Source: Clostridiales bacterium
GTDB taxonomy: Bacteria > Bacillota > Clostridia > Peptostreptococcales > Anaerovoracaceae
Length of the DNA stretch: 64,000 bases
Reading direction: 5' to 3'
Assembly: GCA_012513435.1 (NCBI GenBank)
Contig: JAAZCE010000011.1
Span: forward strand, 62,001 to 126,000
Below, in pieces: positions 20,248 to 59,400 of this stretch; within the stretch, counting starts at the first letter, position 1, and the number at the start of each line of letters is the position of its first letter. A model generated the notes under the pieces. It saw nothing but the letters and a program-made list of their open reading frames with translations, was not told where the DNA came from and made no database searches. The translations under genes were made by a program, and so were the position numbers.

Positions 20248-20275
20248 GCAAAATCGCCGATGTCTGCGATTTTGC
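20248..20275. repeat. Dispersed palindrome, copy 1 (GCAAAATCGCCGATGTCTGCGATTTTGC)
   Basis: 10-bp perfect arms GCAAAATCGC/GCGATTTTGC; just upstream of the RBS of the adhesin gene. Confidence 0.85.
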
Positions 20276-20296: not shown

Positions 20297-23260
20297 ATGT
20301 ATAGAACAAGAGATAGACCAGAGGGACTTATTCGATATTTCAAAATAAAAAAGCGAAACGAGGAAAGTATTGATATGAACATAACAAAAAGAAAAAGTAA
20401 AATATTTACTATGCTGATAGCGATAATAATGATGGTCGGGATATTTATACCATCTGTAAGTGATAGAGCCTATGCAGCGGATGGTAGGATAACGGTAAAG
20501 GTTGGTAAGCAAATTGATTATTCGTCACATTTCACACATTATTTTTATGCAGGAGAAAAAGATCATCCGGTGTATTGCGCTCAGCCTCAGCTCCCAACAC
20601 TTCCATCAGGAACATATGATTACAACTTCATAAGTCCGACATCCATGTTAGCAAAGTGTCTTTACTACGGATTTGGTGGTCCGGGATACGATAAATATAT
20701 TGATGATACATTAAGAGGAAGCTGGGATGGAGAAGATGATGCTTACTGCCTTACCCATATAATCATATCCATCGCATATGATGAAACAACAAGCGCTTCA
20801 GTAGATCCATTTTATGGGCTTACCGGAACATGGAAATCAAAGGCACAGTCACTATATAATTATATAAAGAGCCTCCCTGCTCCACCTGTAAACTACAGGG
20901 CATATATTATAAAGAGCACCGGATGCCAGGATATTCTTGGTTCCTTTAATGATACAGGAAATATAAAGATAGTAAAATCATCTAAAGATACTGCAATGAC
21001 AGATAGCAATACCTGTTACTCACTTGCAGGTGCAAAGTACGGAGTATATTACGGAAGTAGCCTAATAGGAACCATAACAACAGATGCGAGCGGAATAGGA
21101 ACACTAAATAACGTTCTTGTTGCAAACTACACACTTAAGGAAATAACAGCATCAAAGGGCTATGCACTCGATATAAGGTCATATAACTGCAATGTTAAAA
21201 ATGAAACAACAACTACAGTGGGTGTAAAGGAACAGCCTAAGGATGACCCTATAGGAATACTTCTTAAAAAGGGAGATGGAGAAACTGATAAGCCTGCGCC
21301 TCAAGGTGGCGGGGTGCTTCAAGGTGCAGTGTATGAAGTGAAATACTATAAGCATACAAGTAGCGGTAAAAGCCTTGCCGCAACATGGAGATTTATCACA
21401 GATAAGAATGGTATAGCACATTTTTCAGAAGCCGATTTAGATAAGAGCTTTGATAACAGTGACTTTTATATCTCGGCAGCCGGAGACCCATGTATGCCTC
21501 TTGGAACTGTAACCGTTCAGGAAGTAAAAGCTCCAGAAGGATATTTGTTAAATGATAGGATTTATACTACTGTGATAACAGAGGATGCCGGAACGGTAGA
21601 ATCAGTTTATACATATAATACGCCTGAGATTGGTTCGGATGCAGAGGTAGCAGAGCAGCCAAAGAGAGGTGATATCAAGCTTGTAAAGGTCAAAGATGGA
21701 ACCATGCAACGGCTTTCAAATATTCAGTTCAAGATAACTTCAAAAACTACGGGTGAAAGCCATATAGTATGCACAGATGAAAACGGAATAATAGATACAT
21801 CATCAAGTTGGAATTCTCATGAGAGCGATACCAATGGAGGAACATCCCTCTCTGGCGTATGGTTTGGCGAAATTAGTGCTATTGATGATAACAAGGGAGC
21901 ACTTCTTTATGATTACTATACTTTAGATGAAATAAGGGGCGAGAATAATAAAAACATGAGGCTGCTTGAAGATGTAGAGTTTCGTATATATCGAGATTCC
22001 ACTGTCTTAAACCTTGGGACGGTAACAGATGATGTCATAAAAATCAAGACGGAAGCACTTGATAAGGAAACAAAAAATCATATTTCATATGCAGATAATA
22101 AAGTCACTATTATTGATACAGTAAGCTATAAGAATCTTACTGAGGGCAAAATATATAAGATGAAAGGGATGCTAATTGATAAGGAGACAGGAAAGCCTTT
22201 AATAGTAGACGAAAAGAAAATCACATCTGAGAAAGAATTCCTTTGTAAGGATGAGAACGGTAGCATAGAACTTGAATTTACATTTGATGCTACATCTTAT
22301 AGCGGGATAGAGGTAGTCGTATTTGAAAAATGTTTTGATGTAGAAGCAGAAGCGGAAATAACAGGTCATGAAGATATTGAGGATAAAGCCCAGAGCATAT
22401 CTATTCCAAAGATAAAAACTAAAGCAATAGGAAAAGCTTCAAAGCTTAATATAGTGTCAAATGCCGGCAAGCAGAGGGTTATTGATACAGTAAGCTATGA
22501 AAAGCTTTTACCGGGAGAACAGTATTTGCTAAAGACATGGCTTGTAGACAGCAAGGGTTTCCCAATCTTAGATGCGCCTTCTGTTGCAAAGGAGTTTACT
22601 GTAAATGAGGAAAACGGAGAGGTGGATACTGAAATAAGCTTTGATTCGGGCAAGTTCTCCAGTCAGAATGTAGTAATCTTTGAAGAACTATATATCATAA
22701 ATAAAGATACAGGCAAAAAGGAAATCGTTGCTACGCATAAGGATATAAAGGACAGCAACCAGACGATAAAGGTTCCTAAGATAGGAACAACTGCTAAGGT
22801 TTCCGGTTCCAAAGAAAATACTATAAAGCCTAAAGGTGAGCATCAGATAGTAGACACTATCAAATACGAAAACCTTATTTCAGAAAAAGAGTACAAAGCG
22901 AAAACATATCTTGTAGATGCTGATGGAAAAAAGATAAAGGGTACTGATGTAGAAACGATTTTTACAGCAGATAAAGAAAACGGTAGCGTGGATGTGAAAA
23001 TAGTATTTGATGCAGAAAAAATCAAAACACAGAAAATAGTAGTATTTGAAGAAATATATCTTATGGATGATGAAGAAGAGATACTTATAGGTGAGCATAA
23101 GGATATAAACGATGATAACCAGACTGTTAAAATATTAGTTGATACTCCAAAGACAGGCGATAAAAATTTGGTATGGCTCTTTGCCATATTGGCTGTGATA
23201 GCCGGAAGCGGGATATTTGCGGCACTTAAGAAAAATGAGCGGAGGAGAAAAAAAGAATAA
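20297..23260 (+). CDS. VaFE-repeat/SpaA-like surface adhesin with N-terminal thioester-type domain and sortase signal
   Basis: Signal peptide near MNITKRKSKIFTMLIAIIMMVGIFIPSVSDRAYA; VYCAQPQ; IIDTVSYKNL...VVVFEK repeats; C-terminal VDTPKTGD + TM + RRRKKE. Confidence 0.85.
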   Translation: MYRTRDRPEGLIRYFKIKKRNEESIDMNITKRKSKIFTMLIAIIMMVGIFIPSVSDRAYAADGRITVKVGKQIDYSSHFTHYFYAGEKDHPVYCAQPQLPTLPSGTYDYNFISPTSMLAKCLYYGFGGPGYDKYIDDTLRGSWDGEDDAYCLTHIIISIAYDETTSASVDPFYGLTGTWKSKAQSLYNYIKSLPAPPVNYRAYIIKSTGCQDILGSFNDTGNIKIVKSSKDTAMTDSNTCYSLAGAKYGVYYGSSLIGTITTDASGIGTLNNVLVANYTLKEITASKGYALDIRSYNCNVKNETTTTVGVKEQPKDDPIGILLKKGDGETDKPAPQGGGVLQGAVYEVKYYKHTSSGKSLAATWRFITDKNGIAHFSEADLDKSFDNSDFYISAAGDPCMPLGTVTVQEVKAPEGYLLNDRIYTTVITEDAGTVESVYTYNTPEIGSDAEVAEQPKRGDIKLVKVKDGTMQRLSNIQFKITSKTTGESHIVCTDENGIIDTSSSWNSHESDTNGGTSLSGVWFGEISAIDDNKGALLYDYYTLDEIRGENNKNMRLLEDVEFRIYRDSTVLNLGTVTDDVIKIKTEALDKETKNHISYADNKVTIIDTVSYKNLTEGKIYKMKGMLIDKETGKPLIVDEKKITSEKEFLCKDENGSIELEFTFDATSYSGIEVVVFEKCFDVEAEAEITGHEDIEDKAQSISIPKIKTKAIGKASKLNIVSNAGKQRVIDTVSYEKLLPGEQYLLKTWLVDSKGFPILDAPSVAKEFTVNEENGEVDTEISFDSGKFSSQNVVIFEELYIINKDTGKKEIVATHKDIKDSNQTIKVPKIGTTAKVSGSKENTIKPKGEHQIVDTIKYENLISEKEYKAKTYLVDADGKKIKGTDVETIFTADKENGSVDVKIVFDAEKIKTQKIVVFEEIYLMDDEEEILIGEHKDINDDNQTVKILVDTPKTGDKNLVWLFAILAVIAGSGIFAALKKNERRRKKE

Positions 23261-27937: not shown

Positions 27938-28231
27938 ATGAAAATGACAAAACGGGTTTTATTTACAGTATGCTTTTGCATGCTTTTTTTATTTGCCGGC
28001 ACAACGATATGCTTTGCGGCAGGAAGTATTGAAGGCTCTATTGCAAGTTTAAATACGCTTATACGTTCTGTGGTGAAAGCCATCGGCGGTATCGCAACGC
28101 TTTGGGGTGTGGTGCAGCTTGGACTTGCAATGAAAGGTCATGATGCTGCCCAGCGTTCAACTGCGCTTCTTGCTATTGCAGGAGGCCTTATGATTTTCTT
28201 TGCCCCGGAAATACTCGATTCAATAGCATAG
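27938..28231 (+). CDS. Small two-TM T4SS protein (Maff2/VirB2-like)
   Basis: Signal plus two hydrophobic helices directly upstream of a VirB6-like gene. Confidence 0.7.
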   Translation: MKMTKRVLFTVCFCMLFLFAGTTICFAAGSIEGSIASLNTLIRSVVKAIGGIATLWGVVQLGLAMKGHDAAQRSTALLAIAGGLMIFFAPEILDSIA

Positions 28232-33580: not shown

Positions 33581-33616
33581 ATGAGCAAAATCGCAGACGT
33601 CTGCGATTTTGCTCAT
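33581..33616. repeat. Dispersed palindrome, copy 2: perfect 36-bp palindrome ATGAGCAAAATCGCAGACGTCTGCGATTTTGCTCAT
   Basis: The two 18-nt halves are exact reverse complements; followed by the RBS of the ArdC-like gene. Confidence 0.95.
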
Positions 33617-35481: not shown

Positions 35482-35507
35482 CAAAATCGCAGATGTCTGT
35501 GATTTTA
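35482..35507. repeat. Dispersed palindrome, copy 3 (CAAAATCGCAGATGTCTGTGATTTTA)
   Basis: Core matches copies 1, 2 and 4; one arm carries a C-to-T change. Confidence 0.8.
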
Positions 35508-35547: not shown

Positions 35548-35583
35548 GGCAGTGCTTCATTTTGAGGCACTGCCTTTTTTTAT
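35548..35583 (+). terminator. Rho-independent terminator upstream of the cargo cassette
   Basis: ggcagtgc-ttcattttgag-gcactgcc + T-run. Confidence 0.8.
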
Positions 35584-35619
35584 TGAATATGGTATAATTT
35601 AAAATACAAGAGTTTAAAT

Positions 35620-38139: not shown

Positions 38140-38165
38140 AAAATCGCAGATGTCTGCGATTTTGC
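38140..38165. repeat. Dispersed palindrome, copy 4 (AAAATCGCAGATGTCTGCGATTTTGC)
   Basis: Arms AAAATCGCAGA/TCTGCGATTTT. Confidence 0.88.
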
Positions 38166-49821: not shown

Positions 49822-50385
49822 ATGAAAGGGAAGAACCTGTTTGATGCTGCACAGTATTATTCGGAAAACAGAAGAAAAAAATTTGAGAAAGCATTAAAGA
49901 AGTCTACACAGGCTGAAATATTGGAATTTGTTCTTAACAGAGCATTTCCTTCCGATCCGGTATTTATCGCACTTGAATACTTGACAGACGAGGGAATGCT
50001 GTTTCAGGTTGCTTCCACGCAGCAAATCAAATCAATTGCCGGGAAAACCCCTGTTATACAAGTAGGCATAACAGAAAGGGCCGGGGTAGATATTTGTGTA
50101 CAGGCTATAATGCAAATGAAGGAGCAGACTACGCTTATAAAGCTGTTTGAAAATTATGCAAACAACTCGCCCTTATATGGCATCTATAACGCAGGTTCAA
50201 CTTACAACGGTGGATATGAAAAGATAGACGCTTTGGTGAAGAAATTAAGTGAGGAAACCCGAAGAGATATAATAGAGAATCATCAGGAATGGAACAAGGG
50301 AAGCATGGAATGCGCATTTAAAGGCGGCGAATTCAGTGTATCAAACGGAACGTCATTGAGAACGGTGATTGTAAGCAAGCTATAA
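49822..50385 (+). CDS. Conserved-looking hypothetical protein
   Basis: Good RBS-to-ORF arrangement; family not recognised. Confidence 0.5.
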   Translation: MKGKNLFDAAQYYSENRRKKFEKALKKSTQAEILEFVLNRAFPSDPVFIALEYLTDEGMLFQVASTQQIKSIAGKTPVIQVGITERAGVDICVQAIMQMKEQTTLIKLFENYANNSPLYGIYNAGSTYNGGYEKIDALVKKLSEETRRDIIENHQEWNKGSMECAFKGGEFSVSNGTSLRTVIVSKL

Positions 50386-50513
50386 CGCAGGTTATTTATA
50401 TTTTAAGTATATAATAATTTATTTTCTGTAACAATAAAATCGCAAATAATATATTTGGTTATAGATAATGAAGTAGGCAGTATGCGCTTATGGACAATTT
50501 GTTTAACCGTCTG

Positions 50514-50547
50514 AAATACCAGTCAGAAAAACTGACTGGTATTTTTT
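50514..50547 (+). terminator. Rho-independent terminator
   Basis: aaataccagtcag-aaaa-ctgactggtatttttt; lies inside the 5' part of the track ORF 50490-51038. Confidence 0.8.
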
Positions 50548-50618
50548 ATCGATTTTTGTCATATTTTTGGCATTTTCCAGATTTCAAACGTATTACTAAT
50601 GAAAATGGTCGAAAGGAG

Positions 50619-51038
50619 GTGGGAGAATTCAAGAGCCATATTGATGTAGAGATGATTTTCGATGCGTATTGTAAACAGGTTTTAGGAAATAAACTAATAG
50701 ATTATAAGCGTAGAGAGAATTATAGGAGAAATAATGAAGTTTCTTTATTTTATCTATCTGCAAAAGAAAGTATTGCTACAGAGGATGAATATTTTGTGCA
50801 TGTTATCAAAGTTGATAATGAAGAGTATTTAATACAAGATGAAGATTTACATATTGCATTAAATAACTTAACAGAGGATAAGTGCAAAATCATTTTGTTT
50901 TATTACTATGACAGAATGACGGATGGCGAAATCGCAAAAATCTTAGATTTGCCGAGAACTACCATACAGTATAAAAGGCGTACAGCGTTAGATACTTTAT
51001 GTGAATTGATTTTAGGAGGCAGAAAAAATGGAGATTAG
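50619..51038 (+). CDS. Sigma-70-family-like ICE regulator
   Basis: CKIILFYYYDRMTDGEIAKILDLPRTTIQYKRRTALDTL; start revised downstream of the terminator, near an aaaggagg RBS (exact codon uncertain). Confidence 0.7.
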   Translation: MGEFKSHIDVEMIFDAYCKQVLGNKLIDYKRRENYRRNNEVSLFYLSAKESIATEDEYFVHVIKVDNEEYLIQDEDLHIALNNLTEDKCKIILFYYYDRMTDGEIAKILDLPRTTIQYKRRTALDTLCELILGGRKNGD

Positions 51039-51264
51039 CGAATATAGAAATCATATTAAATATCAAACCATTGAAGCAGCAGTAAAAGGCGATGAAGAAG
51101 CAATAAATAAAATCATTAATCACTACGGGAATTATATAAAAAAACTATCAACAATTAAAGTGATTGATGAAGGAGGATACGAAAGACAAGGTGTTGATGT
51201 ATATCTGTCGAGAATTCTTGAACTACATTTAATAACGGCCATATTAAAATTCAAAGTTATCTAA
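51028..51264 (+). CDS. HTH-domain ICE regulator (Tn916 orf8-like)
   Basis: EISEYRNHIKYQTIEAAVKGDEEAINKIINHYGNYI. Confidence 0.75.
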   Translation: MEISEYRNHIKYQTIEAAVKGDEEAINKIINHYGNYIKKLSTIKVIDEGGYERQGVDVYLSRILELHLITAILKFKVI

Positions 51265-51300
51265 AAGCTAAAACATTTTGCAGATAAAAAACTGAATAGG

Positions 51301-51556
51301 AAACATTACATACGTTTAAAAGCCGGGGAGCCTGTGTGAAAGAACGCCGTGACCTGAGAAAATCAGCAGCGATAAAATCTTTGAACGCCTAAATAGAATT
51401 GGCAGCCTATTTTGCGATGATCTGGCTTTGTATAATGATACTCCCGTCTTGAACTCTCCACGGAATTGGACGGCGGCTCATAGGAATGGGGCGAAGGGAT
51501 ACCTTGTGTGCTGAAGCTAAGGCAGTGTAATGTTTATAAAACGTAGAACATGCCTT
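51301..51556 (+). ncRNA. Candidate structured RNA upstream of the recombinase operon
   Basis: ORF-free; long-range pairing 51301-51310/51526-51535 (AAACATTACA/TGTAATGTTT), 51319-51326/51422-51429, CTGA-GAAAA-TCAG, AAATAG/CTATTT, and a competing 3' hairpin AAGGCA/TGCCTT. Hand-found, not computed; strand assumed. Confidence 0.45.
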
Positions 51557-51603
51557 AATTTGTATATAATGTATATAAGGTCAAAAGAGAGGGGGAACTT
51601 GCA

Positions 51604-52704
51604 GTGGTTAAAGTAATAAAAGAAATTAAAAATACTGATATATTTTATTCCCTTGAAAGTGATACTGGAACATTAGAGAATGAAACACAATATTTAATTC
51701 ATAAAAAGAAAGTCAATGCTTCGCCTAATACAGTAAGGCGTATCGCATATTCTCTTTTATACTATCTTGGATTTTTAGAAAGAAACAATTTGGAATTAGG
51801 AGATGTTTTTAATTTATCATATTCCAAACAGCATGAGCATTTTTATCATTTTTTACAATATATCAAAAACGGAGAACATACGGACAGGGGAAAAGTCAGG
51901 AAAAACATCTCATGCAATATGTATCTTGGTGATGTACTTAGATATTATCAGTATTTGAGTTTGGAATACGAAAACTATGGAAAGCTAAAGGTCTTAAAAA
52001 ATAGCGATATAACAATAACAAATAAGATGGGAGTTAAGAAAAAAATAGATGGTAAAACATTTAAAGGCTATTTACCAAATGATAAAAAGCAGGGTGAAAC
52101 TTTGGGGGAAGACAAGCTATTCAAGCTTGTTGGGTCGTGCACAAATTGCAGAGATCAACTAATTTTACTCATGATAGCTGAAACGGGGTTTCGTGTTGGT
52201 GAAGTTTTAGGAATAGATTATGTCGCTGACATTGATTATGAAAGCAGAGCGGCATCAGTGGTAGGTAGAGATAGAAATCTTAATTATGCAAGAGCTAAGA
52301 ATCAGGAAAATAGAAAAGGCTATTTTAGCGAACGGACATTTAAGCTGCTTATGGCATATATATCAAAATACAAAGACATACTAAAAAATACAACAAGTTT
52401 ATTTGTTGTCATATCGGGAGAGCATATTGGAAAGCCTCTGAAAGTAAGTGCTGTTTACAGTATGTTGCGAAGACTTGAGAAAAAGACAAGAATAGATACA
52501 CATCCTCATGCGATAAGGCATTACTTTGCTAATGAGAGATGGAAAAGCGGATGGGATTTGTTATTGATAAGCACTGCATTAGGACATAAATCAATTCAGA
52601 CAACTATAAACTATCTTAACGTGGGAAGCGAAGAACTGCGATCTGCGGCAGAAGATTATTACAGGAATAATAATGCGCTTAATATGATTGGAGACTTATT
52701 ATAA
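51604..52704 (+). CDS. tnpA: Tyrosine recombinase, Tn554 TnpA-like
   Basis: AETGFRVGEVLGIDY (R), HPHAIRHYFANE (HxxR), LGHKSIQTTINYL (H...Y). Confidence 0.88.
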   Translation: MVKVIKEIKNTDIFYSLESDTGTLENETQYLIHKKKVNASPNTVRRIAYSLLYYLGFLERNNLELGDVFNLSYSKQHEHFYHFLQYIKNGEHTDRGKVRKNISCNMYLGDVLRYYQYLSLEYENYGKLKVLKNSDITITNKMGVKKKIDGKTFKGYLPNDKKQGETLGEDKLFKLVGSCTNCRDQLILLMIAETGFRVGEVLGIDYVADIDYESRAASVVGRDRNLNYARAKNQENRKGYFSERTFKLLMAYISKYKDILKNTTSLFVVISGEHIGKPLKVSAVYSMLRRLEKKTRIDTHPHAIRHYFANERWKSGWDLLLISTALGHKSIQTTINYLNVGSEELRSAAEDYYRNNNALNMIGDLL

Positions 52705-52715
52705 GGGCAGGAAAA

Positions 52716-54434
52716 ATGAATGCATTAAAATTACAACCAAAACAATTAAATAAAGATATACTAAGTGTTGAAATTGACAAATGCGAAGTGGTAGAAAAAA
52801 AGATGCGAAATAAAGCATACAATTTTTTGTCTACTATTGGCAGAGAGAGTCTGTCAGAAGTAAGGTATGAAGATAGATGTGCCTACGAAATGTATTTAAA
52901 GAATACAGGAGTGAAAACCAAATGCCAAGAATATATGTGTGCATTTGATAAAGTTATAATAAACAGTAAGAAAGCAAAAGCGGTGAAAGCCCTAGGCAAA
53001 GAAGTTTTGAAACTTGAAGAAAGGAAGCTGTTTCTACTATATGATTTACCTTATGATAAAGCTTTAGTCGTAAATAAAACAATAGATAAGACAGAGCTTT
53101 TATGGGACTTTTCGTTTAGATGCCGCCGGAAAATCAAAAAACAAATAATTGCTTTAATTAATTATATATTAGAAGACTATGATAGCCATAAGATGCAAAG
53201 AGCATATTTATTATCACTTAAATCATTATACAGGTTTTGCTATGAACAAAAAATCAACGATTTGTTAAAATTAGAAAGAGCAGAAGAAAGAAGATTTTAC
53301 ATGTACCTTTCTTCAGATGATACTGTTCCAAGATATACCCATAAGATAATTGATTATTGTAGAAAGAAATTATTTTTACATAGTGAAGAAATAAGCTGGA
53401 CAGCGTGTGTTTGGTATGTAGAAAGATTTAAGCTGGACATCTCCCGGATAAATCTATCCAATCCGGTAGAAATTATTTCATTTATTGAAATAACAAATGA
53501 GGAGAACAGAAAGCTACTGCAAAGGTATATAAAGTATTATTTAAGCGTCAGTGACTACAGTATATCAACGATAAGGCACAAGCAAGTAATACTGCGTGAA
53601 TTTATAGCCTATTTTGATCTATATAATAAAAAAATAAACGAGCTTAGGGCAGAGGATATTGAACAATTTTTTGATTACATCAAAGGTAAAGAAATAAAAC
53701 CGGAAACAGTAAATAGAAAAATAATTGAGATTGCACTATTCTACAGGTTTTTAGTTATATATAAAATAGTGGATAGAGTGCCTTTTATCCCGGAGTATTA
53801 TTTATATAAGATAATAGGTAAGGTACACAACAATAGAAGTGTTAATGAAAATATAATATATGACATCTTAAAGGGTTTAAGCAATATACCTATGAAGCTC
53901 AGGTTGATGTTTTTAATATTGTGGTGTAGTGGCAGAAGAAAAAACGAAATTTGTCAGCTAAAAGGAGATTCTTTTTTCAAAATGAATAACGAGTTTTGGG
54001 TAAAATTTTATCAGCCTAAAATGAAAGCTGATATTATAATACCAATACCCAGTGAATTATATAAGCTTATGGAGAGGTATATTGATGTGAATTGCATTTT
54101 GCCATCGGATTATTTGTTCTTAAATTCAATGGGTAAACCATATAATGCACAGACATTTTCACAGCAGATGGTTGAAGTTTGTAATAATATAGATTTCAAT
54201 AGCGCTGAGTATGCTTTTAAGGCACATGATTTCCGCCATACCATAGCAACGCTTCTTTATTCAAATGAAGTATCTGTGCAAGTCATAAGAGATTTCCTTG
54301 GACATAAGAGCGATGAAATGACGAAAGAATACATAGATTATATACCGAAAAAAATAGAAGCAGAAACAAAGAAATATCATGAAAATAAAAAGAAGAAGTT
54401 AACTGATGCAATAGGTGAGGCGTATCATGAATAA
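52716..54434 (+). CDS. tnpB: Tyrosine recombinase, Tn554 TnpB-like
   Basis: CSGRRKNEICQLKGD; AHDFRHTIATLLYSN; LGHKSDEMTKEYIDY. Confidence 0.88.
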   Translation: MNALKLQPKQLNKDILSVEIDKCEVVEKKMRNKAYNFLSTIGRESLSEVRYEDRCAYEMYLKNTGVKTKCQEYMCAFDKVIINSKKAKAVKALGKEVLKLEERKLFLLYDLPYDKALVVNKTIDKTELLWDFSFRCRRKIKKQIIALINYILEDYDSHKMQRAYLLSLKSLYRFCYEQKINDLLKLERAEERRFYMYLSSDDTVPRYTHKIIDYCRKKLFLHSEEISWTACVWYVERFKLDISRINLSNPVEIISFIEITNEENRKLLQRYIKYYLSVSDYSISTIRHKQVILREFIAYFDLYNKKINELRAEDIEQFFDYIKGKEIKPETVNRKIIEIALFYRFLVIYKIVDRVPFIPEYYLYKIIGKVHNNRSVNENIIYDILKGLSNIPMKLRLMFLILWCSGRRKNEICQLKGDSFFKMNNEFWVKFYQPKMKADIIIPIPSELYKLMERYIDVNCILPSDYLFLNSMGKPYNAQTFSQQMVEVCNNIDFNSAEYAFKAHDFRHTIATLLYSNEVSVQVIRDFLGHKSDEMTKEYIDYIPKKIEAETKKYHENKKKKLTDAIGEAYHE

Positions 54435-55893
54435 TGTTTTGGATATAAGAAGCTTAGAAAGCTATACAAATGCTACTGAAAGACAAAAGGAAAGAATCGA
54501 CTGCAAGCAATGCTATATTTACGATTTTGATCAAGTGCTTGATAAAGAAATCCGCAAGGCACTTACAAAATTTGTAGAGGAAAGGTGCAGCAGGCTATCG
54601 ATTGTTACGATTGGCTATGAGATTTGGTTGTATGATATTGTATGTGCATTTTTCAATACTCTAAATGCAAATCTCAGCTCTTTAAAAAGAGAATATGTTG
54701 AGAGAAAATATAAAGCATTTTTAATGAGTAAAGGATATCCACTGACTAAAGCACATTTCAGGAAATACTCCGGTAAACTATGTGTTGAACAATCAGAGAC
54801 ATTAGCATACATGCACAAGTTTTTAGACGGAATATATATAGCAGATGAAACTGATATTATATATATAACAGAATTTGAGGGCATAAGGAACAATCCTATA
54901 AAACCGGTTAGATATATAAATTTTGAGAAGATTAAACAAGAAAAAATGAAACAGGAAACCAAAGCAGCAATTAGGATGGAAAGCAGATACAAAGCTGCAA
55001 GCACTTTAAGAGGTGAAGTTTTAGCTGTAAACAGATTTTCAAAGTTTATGGATGAAAAATATCAAGATATAAAATCGTTTAAAAATGTAAATAGGAAAGT
55101 CATTGAAGATTATCTTATATATATTAAAGTCGAATTGAGAATAAGCGCAGTATCGTATAAAAGTGAAATATCGCAGCTGAAAAGTGTAATCAACGAAGCA
55201 GCCAGTATATTTGAATATGAGGCACTTGATAATTTATTCTTTGGAAATGAATATTCAAGCATGGTAAATAAGATACAACGTTTTTATTCGCAAGACGAAC
55301 TTGAAAGATTTAATAAATGCCTTATTAGAGAAGAAGAACAATTTGCAAGATGTATTTTTCTTCATCAGATTTTAGGAACCAGAATATCAGAGACTCTCTT
55401 ACTTAGAAAAGATTGTATATATTATAAAAATAAGATGCCGGTAATTAAAATAGAGCAATGGAAAACAAAAAAGTATTATGAAAAGCCAATCAATGATGAA
55501 ATTGTAACGCTGATAAATAAATGTATTGAATATACAGAAAAAAGATACGGTGTAACAGAATATATATTTGTGAGCCCAAAAGATCCAAAGAGACCTTTGA
55601 GTTATGGAACCCTTGAAACGAGAATCAAAACTATGATAAGAGATAATATAATACTCGATGACAATGGGGAACTATTATTTTTCAGCACACACGTTTTTAG
55701 GAGAAATTATGGTAAGGCATTGACCGAAATGCATCTTGATGATGTACGAATATCTAAGCTACTTGGACATGCAGACACAAGGAATGTATACAAGTACAGA
55801 AAACTAAGTCCGACCATTATAGCAAGAGAAACGAGGCCTGTAAGGGATATGATGGATAAGACTATTAGAGAAATATCAGCGGGGTGGTTTTGA
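54415..55893 (+). CDS. Third tyrosine recombinase, TnpB-like
   Basis: LGTRISETLLLRKDC; STHVFRRNYGKALTE; LGHADTRNVYKYRK; overlaps tnpB. Confidence 0.85.
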   Translation: MRRIMNNVLDIRSLESYTNATERQKERIDCKQCYIYDFDQVLDKEIRKALTKFVEERCSRLSIVTIGYEIWLYDIVCAFFNTLNANLSSLKREYVERKYKAFLMSKGYPLTKAHFRKYSGKLCVEQSETLAYMHKFLDGIYIADETDIIYITEFEGIRNNPIKPVRYINFEKIKQEKMKQETKAAIRMESRYKAASTLRGEVLAVNRFSKFMDEKYQDIKSFKNVNRKVIEDYLIYIKVELRISAVSYKSEISQLKSVINEAASIFEYEALDNLFFGNEYSSMVNKIQRFYSQDELERFNKCLIREEEQFARCIFLHQILGTRISETLLLRKDCIYYKNKMPVIKIEQWKTKKYYEKPINDEIVTLINKCIEYTEKRYGVTEYIFVSPKDPKRPLSYGTLETRIKTMIRDNIILDDNGELLFFSTHVFRRNYGKALTEMHLDDVRISKLLGHADTRNVYKYRKLSPTIIARETRPVRDMMDKTIREISAGWF

Positions 55894-56252
55894 TGAATAA
55901 ATATGATAATATGGTTACAAGTGTAAAAAAGAAAAGTGCTGAAAAAGTAAAAATAGCCAAAGATGCCATATTATATATGCTTGAAAACAATCAGCATATT
56001 ACAGTGTGTGGATTGGTAGAACTAACGGGATTATCAAGAGGCTTTTTTTATAATAATCAGGAAGTAAAAGAAATATTGAATAGAGCACTTGATAGTCAGC
56101 CGGGTAATGATTGTATGGATCGGAGAAGTGCAATAATAGATGCGGCTATGTCGAAACAATTAGAAACATTGGGGATTCAATGTGCAAGATTAAAAGAAGA
56201 AAATAAAAAGCTACAAACAGAAATAGTAGTTCTTAGGGGAAGAGAATTTTAG
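55884..56252 (+). CDS. tnpC: TnpC/DUF6262-like protein
   Basis: Overlaps the third recombinase; HTH-like ITVCGLVELTGLSRGFFYNNQEVKEIL with C-terminal coiled coil. Confidence 0.75.
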   Translation: MVLMNKYDNMVTSVKKKSAEKVKIAKDAILYMLENNQHITVCGLVELTGLSRGFFYNNQEVKEILNRALDSQPGNDCMDRRSAIIDAAMSKQLETLGIQCARLKEENKKLQTEIVVLRGREF

Positions 56253-56423
56253 AAGGAGTGTATCTTTATGAAAGAAAGAGTACATACGCAAAATGATTTA
56301 ATTGCTGCAATCAAAAATAATTATCAAAGCATTTGCACAATACAGATATAAGTAGAATTTATAAGATATAAATGATAAAATAAGCTTATAATAATATATT
56401 TTTTTATGTATAAAGGGGTTTAT

Positions 56424-59400
56424 ATGAGCTTAAAGATACTGCACTTATCAGATCTACATATTGGAGAAAACCACAAAGAGGCAATTCCAATAAAAGATTT
56501 AGCATATAAAATTGTTTCTAGTTTAGATGGAAAAATTCCGGAAGCCATTATAGTAACAGGTGATATTTTTGATTATACGGCATTAGAGAGTGAAAAAAAG
56601 GATGAGTTAATTAAAGAGGCAATAAATTTTTTTGAAAAACTAATCGAACTTATTAATAATGGAACAATTACTCTTACAAAGGATACTACTTTTTTTGTGC
56701 CAGGGAATCATGAAGTGGCACAAAAAAACGCTATTTCAAATGATGGTATACGATATCAAATTTATGAGGAGTTCTTAACACTATTTTATCAAGACAACAT
56801 ACCTAAGTTTTACGATAATGAAACTTGGTCTGTGTTTTCCATATTTGAAGAAAAAGGCGTTATGTTGTTAGGCTTTAATTCTGCGAATATTGAAACAAAT
56901 GATAAAAATGAAATAAAAACATTTGGTGCAATATCAGAAAAACAACTATATATACAATTACAGAAAGCAAAAGCGATAAGTAATATTGAAGAATATGTTT
57001 GTATTGCGTTTTTACATCATCATTTCTATTTAATGGATGAGCGTAATAAAGATGAACTCGATAGCGCTACGTTACATAATAGTGAAGGATTTTTAAATAT
57101 ATTATGTAAATTCAATACAATTGCAATATTACATGGACATAAACATTCTTCAAGTAATAGAAGAATGAACATAGATACTAGTATTGAAACTGAAGACATG
57201 ATGACAACTGTTCTAGGGTGTGGTAGTACTGATAAAGGTGATACGTTAGTAAATAGTTTTAACTTTATAGAAGTTTATAGTTTGAATAACTCTTATGATT
57301 TAAAATATCAAGAATTTGAATATAAAAATAGTTCTTTCTATGCAAAACAAGAAATAAGAATACCAGTAAAATCTACAAATAATGCAAAGATTAATTTGGA
57401 TTTTGTTTTGAAAGAAAACCCCGATTTTGAACAAAGATATAAACAATTGAGGACAATTGATACCTCAACTCTTATTCGTGAATTTTATGATATGATAAAT
57501 TATACTATATTTCGCTTGTCTTCTTCTGCCGAAGAAATTAAAGAAGATAATAAAGTAGTATATTATATTTTAGCTGCGATACACTATCAGGCAGATAGAG
57601 AGAATAACTTTACATTTTACGGGGAAATTGAACAGTTTTTTAGAGAAATTTTGAATATTGATTTTTCTGAGAAGATGAGTGAATTCATAATTTCTAAATT
57701 GCAAGCTGTGAGTAGCATTTACGATATTCATGACTTTTACAAAGTAATAATGGATGATAATTTAAGCTTAAAGCAGAGCAGATATATTGTTTATTTTGTT
57801 ATAACGTTATTTTTAACGAAATGCTATACAATCTTAAAATATAACCCTGATAATTTTGTTGAAGATTTTATAAGTAGTAAAGTTCCTTTTTCTTATAACC
57901 TAGATAAATTAAAAAAGAATATCGAAGGCGCTATGATTTCATTTGATATTAATGAGGAAAAGAGAGCATTAGAGTTAGAAGTTACTTGTAAAACAGCTGA
58001 AGCACATAAAGTAATAAGCCTTATTATTAAAGAATTTGAATTGATTTTAGCAGAGCTGGAACAAGATTTTGCACGATTTGGGTTCAGAGTTTACTACATA
58101 TTGCCAATGCTACCTACTTTTAAAAAGGGGCGGCAGGATTGTCTAGAGAGTCATATATTTTCAGCTTATATACCTAAATTGATACCGCTGTTAGCCGGAA
58201 GGCAAATATACTCTGAGCAAGAAGCCTTTACGCGGGAATTGCTACAAAACTCTATAGATGCAATCAACTTAAGAGTAAAAATGGATTCTAATTTTGCAAA
58301 GAATCAAGGTAAAATAGAATTATTTATTGGAACATATAAAAATCAAAATTATTTCCAAATCATAGATAATGGAATTGGCATGGACAGATACGTTATGGAA
58401 AGATATTTAACAACCATAGGTAGAAGCTTCTATAAAAGTTCTGACTTTAATAGATTAGATGCAGAATACGATCCTATTAGCCAGTTTGGAATTGGCTTTT
58501 TATCTTGTTTCATGATGGGAAAAAGAGTAGTGGTTGAGTCTCGCTATTATAGTGAAGGCGTTATAAACGGACACTCTTTAGATATTCCTAATTTTGATGG
58601 ATGTTTTTTTATAGAGAATAAAGAAAAATTAGAAGTCGGAACAAAGGTTACTGTCTATGAAAATGAAGAAAGAAAGCCTTTAGATAAGAACTTTGGCTTT
58701 CAACCTTTAAAAACCTATATTGAGAAAACAATAATAGATGTGCCATTTGACATTTGGTTAAATAATCAACTTTTTGTGGAGAAACAAAAGTATAAGAAAA
58801 TGATAGAAAGTAATTGCAAAGACAAAAAATTATGTTTTTTCATACCAATTAAAGATAGTGAATATATTTTTGATGGGAAAACGCTTCCAAAAGACTACTT
58901 TTATGGTATATATTTTTATAAAGAAGATGGGGGATTGCTGAACGAAAAAAATCATACAAAGGTGCTTTGTGCGGGTATTAGAGTTAGAGAAAGTAATAAT
59001 TTTCATATGTTTAAAGCATTACAATATCCTAAATATTTTAATGTTTATGCGAATTTTCCAAGTAGCACAGTCTCATTAAATGTATCGAGAGAAACCATAT
59101 CAGACATTAATATACCAAGCCACCAAATAGAAACTGAATTAAAGGAACAGATTTATAGTTATGTGGATTCTCCATACGGAAAGCAGCTGACGTTTGGGGT
59201 GTATTCGCATATTGGTTTGGAAGATTATAGCGCCACAAATATTCATTTTATGATGGATGGGTCTAATGTTTTATTGAAATATGATGAATTGGATATAAAT
59301 GACACAAAACGCGTTACAATAGAAACGATTAACTTTTTATTTAAAAAAATATTAAAGGTAGAGCATAAGATAAAGTATGATATAGATTTGGAAATTAATG

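Follow-up and report, generated by a model that had tools for sequence, protein, structure and literature searches.

A structured RNA before a tyrosine recombinase operon with sequence homology to the antiterminator canT of Tn916

Introduction

The 452 nt that separate orf8 from xis in Tn916, known as canT, form a processive antiterminator that works in cis and in one orientation only (Wirachman and Grossman 2024, PMC11658703). It acts on several terminators and is needed for transcription of the transfer genes after excision; canT mutants excise normally, lose transfer-gene transcription and conjugate about 100-fold less, and canT does not complement in trans (PMC11658703). The substitution canT(S3) (ATA to TGC, at nucleotide 283 past orf8) is inactivating, but has little effect within a shorter 400-bp fragment of Tn916 (PMC11658703), and the links between sequence and function are therefore not simple. 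For the structure of canT, single-sequence folds only have been published, which the authors found hard to interpret and did not take further; their paper mentions neither Rfam nor boxA, and their map of Tn916 draws oriT and sso apart from canT (PMC11658703). The conAn RNA of plasmid pLS20, which has a protein partner, ConAn1, is likewise an RNA-based processive antitermination system of a conjugation operon (PMC8955417), and is likened to the RNA described here by function and not by RNA homology.

The window, that is, the whole 64,000-nt stretch of Clostridiales DNA that was analysed, contains a gap without open reading frames before three recombinase genes. The original prediction placed a structured RNA with two mutually exclusive folds in this gap and suggested that it switches recombinase expression and thus excision. 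Here we compare the locus with canT, which shares its position and much of its architecture, and weigh the alternatives.

Results

Gene order at the locus and the element that carries it

The following features were identified around the gap.

50490-51038, + strand: sigma-70-like regulator gene, equivalent of Tn916 orf7 (Pfam Sigma70_r4, 3.7e-5; TIGR02937)
51028-51264, + strand: HTH_16 gene, equivalent of Tn916 orf8 (PF12645, 3.1e-22)
51301-51535, + strand: canT-type RNA, from the P0 5' arm through the P0 3' arm (leave-out profile HMM, arm-swap covariation)
51604-52704, 52716-54434 and 54415-55893, + strand: three tyrosine recombinase genes (PF00589)
55884-56252, + strand: DUF6262 gene, in the place of TnpC in Tn554-type operons (PF19776, 1.9e-32)

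The Sigma70_r4 match (3.7e-5) was slightly under the Pfam cut-off, and the NCBIfam match TIGR02937 was above its own (44.9 bits against 42.9). The gap, predicted at about 340 bp, measured 339 nt (51265-51603) from the end of the HTH_16 gene at 51264 to the GTG start of the first recombinase at 51604. At its right end, Tn916 shows the same order of sigma-like gene, HTH_16 gene, gap and recombination genes. In the window they lie on one strand and within an ICE, for which the following features were mapped.

19191-60351 (right end about 60350), + strand: ICE bearing the RNA, 41 kb (split gene, GGCA core at both junctions)
27967-27994, + strand: terminator-like hairpin between the coupling-protein gene and the next transfer gene (consensus match only)
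35548-35584, + strand: terminator-like hairpin 3' of the transfer genes, inside the ICE (consensus match only)
60241-60273, + strand: terminator-like hairpin near the right end of the ICE (consensus match only)

The ICE interrupts the gene of a T2SSE/TadA-type ATPase (...DMVQA / INTGHSG...) within the conserved codons QA(I/M)NTGH, an insertion site of the tyrosine-recombinase trio. The genes of the ICE look intact and include, on the + strand, those for a relaxase, a coupling protein (T4CP) and a VirB4-like protein. An imperfect inverted TTATATTTAC adjoins both junctions (19191; 60346-60351). The ICE contains four copies of a 24-bp palindrome, AAAATCGCAGACGTCTGCGATTTT, with up to 2 mismatches (20250-20273, 33587-33610, 35483-35506 and 38140-38163), where none is expected by chance; it is a candidate operator or bidirectional hairpin. 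At the left end, 20297-23260 encodes a surface protein, a probable cargo adhesin, that contains thioester, SpaA and T-Q ester bond domains. The large protein encoded at 56406-60155 combines a metallophosphoesterase with an HSP90-like ATPase domain; its phosphoesterase part matched the NCBIfam anti-phage phosphoesterase DS9_1 under the cut-off, making it possible defence cargo.

A fold supported by covariation

The RNA of the window was divided into the elements below.

51288-51298, + strand: boxA 3' half, AAAACTGAATA (conserved place; 12/19)
51301-51311, + strand: P0 5' arm, AAACATTACAT (pairs with 51525-51535; beats all swapped arms)
51312-51316, + strand: conserved ACGTT, joining P0 to P1
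51319-51327, + strand: P1 5' arm, AAAGCCGGG (pairs with 51421-51429)
51334-51342, + strand: P2 5' arm, GTGTgAAAG (pairs with 51379-51388)
51345-51354, + strand: conserved motif CGCCGTGACC (family form CGCCATGACC)
51354-51366, + strand: hairpin P3, CTGA-GAAAA-TCAG (sequence alone)
51367-51372, + strand: conserved CAGCGA (family form GAGCGA)
51379-51388, + strand: P2 3' arm, CTTTgaACGC
51391-51412, + strand: hairpin P4, AAATAG..CTATTT, with GGCA in its loop (sequence alone)
51414-51420, + strand: conserved GCGATGA
51421-51429, + strand: P1 3' arm, TCTGGCTTT
51432-51442, + strand: AUAAUGAUACU, the most conserved motif of the family
51432-51509, + strand: pemK-like 3' domain with hairpins 51444-51473 and 51474-51493 (RF02913, 28.7 bits)
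51519-51556, + strand: alternative hairpin competing with P0 (-11.0 kcal/mol locally)
51525-51535, + strand: P0 3' arm, GTGTAATGTTT

Across the family the order from 5' to 3' is boxA, P0, ACGTT, P1, GAGC, P2, CGCCATGACC, P3, GAGCGA, P4, GCGATGA, the P1 3' arm, AUAAUGAUACU, the pemK hairpins and the P0 3' arm. In the window copy both P0 and P1 are intact, as are the five core motifs. The 10-bp long-range stem of the original prediction is the closing helix P0: AAACATTACA (51301-51310) and TGTAATGTTT (51526-51535) are perfect complements over 10 bp, extended to 11 bp by one U.G pair (51301-51311 with 51525-51535), and the helix covaries across 48 loci (see below). The predicted local stems were also present, with AAAGCCGG/CTGGCTTT corresponding to P1 (51319-51327/51421-51429), CTGA-GAAAA-TCAG to P3 (51354-51366) and AAATAG/CTATTT to P4 (51391-51396/51407-51412).

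Folding both strands, as had been proposed, gave an unremarkable result, since the single-sequence energy of the window RNA was not significant on either strand (z -0.83 for +, -1.65 for -). RNAalifold recovered almost no structure from a MAFFT alignment of trimmed cores, because the helix arms differ in register and sequence between loci; we therefore used an alignment-free arm-swap test, in which the pairing of each locus's own 5' and 3' arms is compared with that of partners taken from other loci (48 loci, 5000 permutations; excluding loci in which an insert separates boxA from P0 or whose anchors were wrongly placed). Under selection, a 5' arm should pair best with its own 3' arm. This was the case for P0 (mean duplex energy -12.15 against -7.32 when permuted, z -15.4), P1 (-11.61 against -4.71, z -17.5) and P2 (-6.81 against -4.09, z -9.2), none of the 5000 permutations being as good for any of the three helices over the 48 loci. 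All 48 loci form P0, with 37 distinct 5' arms, and P1, with 39. Within the window, P0 and P1 paired better than with every swapped arm; P2 is weak in this copy, where 10.6% of swapped arms equal it despite the family-wide support. The covariation among homologues that had been proposed as a check is thus clear for P0 and P1, and the + strand carries a conserved structured RNA, closed by P0, before the recombinase operon.

Homologues of the RNA and relation to canT

Among 201 genomes of the bacterial family, a DNA search found one true relative (L002/L056), in which a sigma-like gene, an HTH_16 gene and the RNA stand as in the window and are followed by a large serine recombinase, with no tyrosine trio. 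The two RNAs have blocks in common, including ACGTTTAAAA, AACGCCGTGACC, GCGATGA and ATGATACTCCCGTCT, and the differences between their stem arms compensate each other. Another candidate, L003, was rejected because its match was short and fell within a coding gene. The RNA of the window had zero blastn matches among plasmids and phages, and the first recombinase had zero in a protein search of genome contigs. Of 27 pattern matches in viral contigs, only L143 held the full RNA, with a weak partial one in L150; the RNA is therefore not apparently common in phages.

A profile HMM was built from 29 trimmed members, with the window and L056 both excluded from training, and run against 128 kb of sequence, to which the window in reverse was added as a decoy. 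It matched the window at 51308-51447 (E 2.8e-12), and still did so at 51308-51420 (E 9.7e-7) when the part overlapping pemK was removed. Tn916 was not in the training set either, and its canT was matched with an E-value of 1.1e-20. The orf8-xis region of the Tn916 copy L098 contains the full RNA, with a pemK score of 55.0 bits. At the canT(S3) position of this copy, ATA forms the first three bases of AUAAUGAUACU; the equivalent ATA of the window lies at 51432-51434, inside ATAATGATACT. The deletion canT(delta162), L098 2947-3108, runs from P2 to immediately before the P0 3' arm. Judged by these matches, the window RNA is homologous to canT of Tn916, and both belong to one RNA family. They are alike in location, after orf8/HTH_16 and before the recombination genes, in the P0, P1, P2 architecture and in all conserved motifs, including the ATA struck by canT(S3). 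In contrast to canT, the window sequence is strongly diverged, its boxA is only half retained and its recombinases are the tyrosine trio with DUF6262 instead of Xis/Int.

The alternative hairpin and the genes beside the RNA

A second fold that sequesters the P0 3' arm had been predicted, and such a hairpin does exist at 51519-51556 (-11.0 kcal/mol); in the free minimum-energy fold it is favoured over P0 by 3.8 kcal/mol (-64.0 against -60.2). Its conservation did not hold up, however, none being found among the 48 homologues (z -1.67, 253/5000 permutations as good), and a scan of 50300-56500 found no intrinsic terminator.

The neighbouring genes were compared across loci. Upstream, they are mostly sigma-70-like or HTH_16 genes. 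Downstream, the first same-strand gene of at least 150 codons (n = 59) was a large serine recombinase in 29 loci, a tyrosine integrase in 14 and ParA in 3. The RNA thus stands before unrelated recombinases (large serine, Tn916-type Int, tyrosine trio), and it travels with the regulator side while the type of recombinase is exchanged. The three ParA-like loci are probably L040, L042 and L043, which have in common a pair of genes of 275-300 aa and 314-316 aa; in L038 a Fic-domain gene follows the RNA. Between the sigma-like gene and boxA, 60-110 nt 5' of boxA, there is a motif like CTATAGGTGAGAGGACA, found in many members without HTH_16 (e.g. L053, L066, L081, L087), which may form a hairpin or be a promoter recognised by that sigma factor. 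In Tn916-like elements, Rfam SQ2397, a cis-regulator of an HTH transcription factor, lies 5' of the sigma gene (L032 52-281, L010 156-391).

These results bear on the idea of a riboswitch or attenuator whose two exclusive folds toggle recombinase expression and excision. The fit of the P0 3' arm to the -11.0 kcal/mol hairpin and the recombinases that follow the RNA in 43/59 loci speak for it, but the hairpin is unconserved (z -1.67), no terminator was found at 50300-56500, ParA and other genes also follow the RNA, and canT mutants of Tn916 excise normally (PMC11658703). We consider such a switch improbable, and with it the proposed control of the recombinases and of excision, the second fold lacking conservation and the recombinases behind the RNA being unrelated to each other.

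Rfam families pemK and dinG

The Rfam scan that had been suggested gave no match to the window RNA at the family cut-offs, but a pemK match beneath them: RF02913 scored 28.7 bits (E 0.0028 in 501 nt; gathering score 34.8 not reached), and RF03082 dinG 24.3 bits (gathering score 46.9 not reached). L056 had no Rfam match at E <= 1. The pemK model matched 52/200 genomes of the order (about a quarter), 0/14 control genomes and 21/300 genomes sampled across the phylum. A second RNA of the same family is located elsewhere in this genome (G000:C15:584-681; L073, L112) and scores 54.5 bits with pemK, over the Rfam cut-off.

In the pemK loci inspected, pemK covered only the 3' portion of a longer RNA, whose 5' domain is constant. 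RF02913 models 61 nt and corresponds to the 3' domain of the window from AUAAUGAUACU onward, whereas the family RNA is about 230-300 nt long, its 5' domain and closing helix lying outside the model. RF03082 shares the AUGAUACU motif and hairpins, and the 5' domain was found upstream of most dinG matches tested, five near full profile length (E 5e-10 to 8.5e-5) and three partial. Because this domain also precedes dinG, the comparison indicates that pemK and dinG are very probably two 3' fragments of one RNA class. The connection between pemK and canT is new as far as could be checked, since no earlier link was found in the literature searched, which was largely without subscription papers, including the original description of pemK and dinG.

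That dinG is classed as an sRNA in Rfam, together with the compact fold, would suit a trans-acting small RNA produced by the element. Such an RNA would not be expected to keep a constant position on the same strand ahead of the downstream gene, and canT of Tn916 fails to complement in trans (PMC11658703); we regard this explanation as very improbable.

boxA at the head of the family

Nearly all members carry GTTCTTTGACAACTGAATA or a near form directly 5' of P0, 48/63 at 14/19 or better, while random 400-nt stretches of the window usually reach 10-12 of 19 at best. rRNA operons of the order, taken from other genomes, have the same element as the family boxA, GTTCTTTGAMAAYTGAATA: their leader reads GAACTTTGAAAACTGAACAG and their spacer GTACTTTGAAAACTGAATA. 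The boxA of rRNA operons loads NusB and S10; these operons differ from the family in being without such a structured RNA. By analogy, the family-wide boxA suggests loading of NusB and S10. The window retains only AAAACTGAATA (51288-51298) and has lost the 5' half (GTTCTTTG), so that its match to the family boxA, 12/19, is at background level despite the expected position. With half of its boxA kept, this copy may therefore be less dependent on boxA, or be impaired.

An rRNA-type boxA at the head of the family is difficult to reconcile with a site that works at the DNA level, such as an attachment site, an origin of transfer or a single-strand origin with hairpins in single-stranded DNA. The region is structured and adjoins the recombinases, as such a site might, but the ICE ends (19191 and about 60350) are distant from the RNA, and oriT and sso of Tn916 were mapped apart from canT (PMC11658703). 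We find this explanation extremely improbable.

An alternative explanation closer to canT is that the window holds a decayed relic, whose fold persists while antitermination was lost with the 5' half of boxA. This would agree with a boxA score equal to background, a pemK score under the Rfam cut-off and a weak P2. However, P0, P1 and the five core motifs are intact, as the ICE genes appear to be, and we consider a relic unlikely.

Discussion

Overall, the window RNA is likely to be a canT-type processive antiterminator acting on everything downstream, by analogy with Tn916. This reading rests on the homology to canT, the common covarying fold, the same gene order and the same-strand terminator-like hairpins downstream. 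As counterpoints, the energy minimum prefers the alternative hairpin, boxA is degenerate and the pemK match is under the Rfam cut-off. If the RNA is an antiterminator, the nascent transcript would fold in the stretch that separates the sigma/HTH_16 genes from the recombinases, and the folded RNA would remain with RNA polymerase and make it resistant to terminators; in the family, boxA would load NusB and S10 onto the transcription complex. Once the ICE had excised and circularised, the transcript would cross the recombinases and the attachment site, reading past the terminator-like hairpin at 60241 and entering the transfer genes, which lie from about 20 kb onward, and would next meet the terminator-like hairpins at 27967 and then 35548. 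Such a circular path, from the sigma/HTH_16 genes through the RNA, the recombinases and the junction to the transfer genes, is the arrangement of Tn916.

It is possible, though we put it forward tentatively, that canT and the pemK and dinG fragments represent one RNA class of Bacillota mobile elements in which boxA and the fold together recruit the host machinery of rRNA antitermination. If so, the window copy would be a folded RNA that works with little or no boxA. The boxA of the family RNAs points to a host factor, NusB/S10, that can be tested. For canT itself, the comparison of homologues yields a covariation-supported fold of the 5' part and the closing helix, and the most conserved motif of the family, situated at the S3 site, would explain why the canT(S3) mutation is inactivating. 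Homology to canT also offers a likely function for two orphan Rfam families, pemK and dinG. As pemK matches occur in 52/200 genomes of the order, canT-type RNA may be a common means by which conjugative elements couple the expression of their transfer genes to excision.
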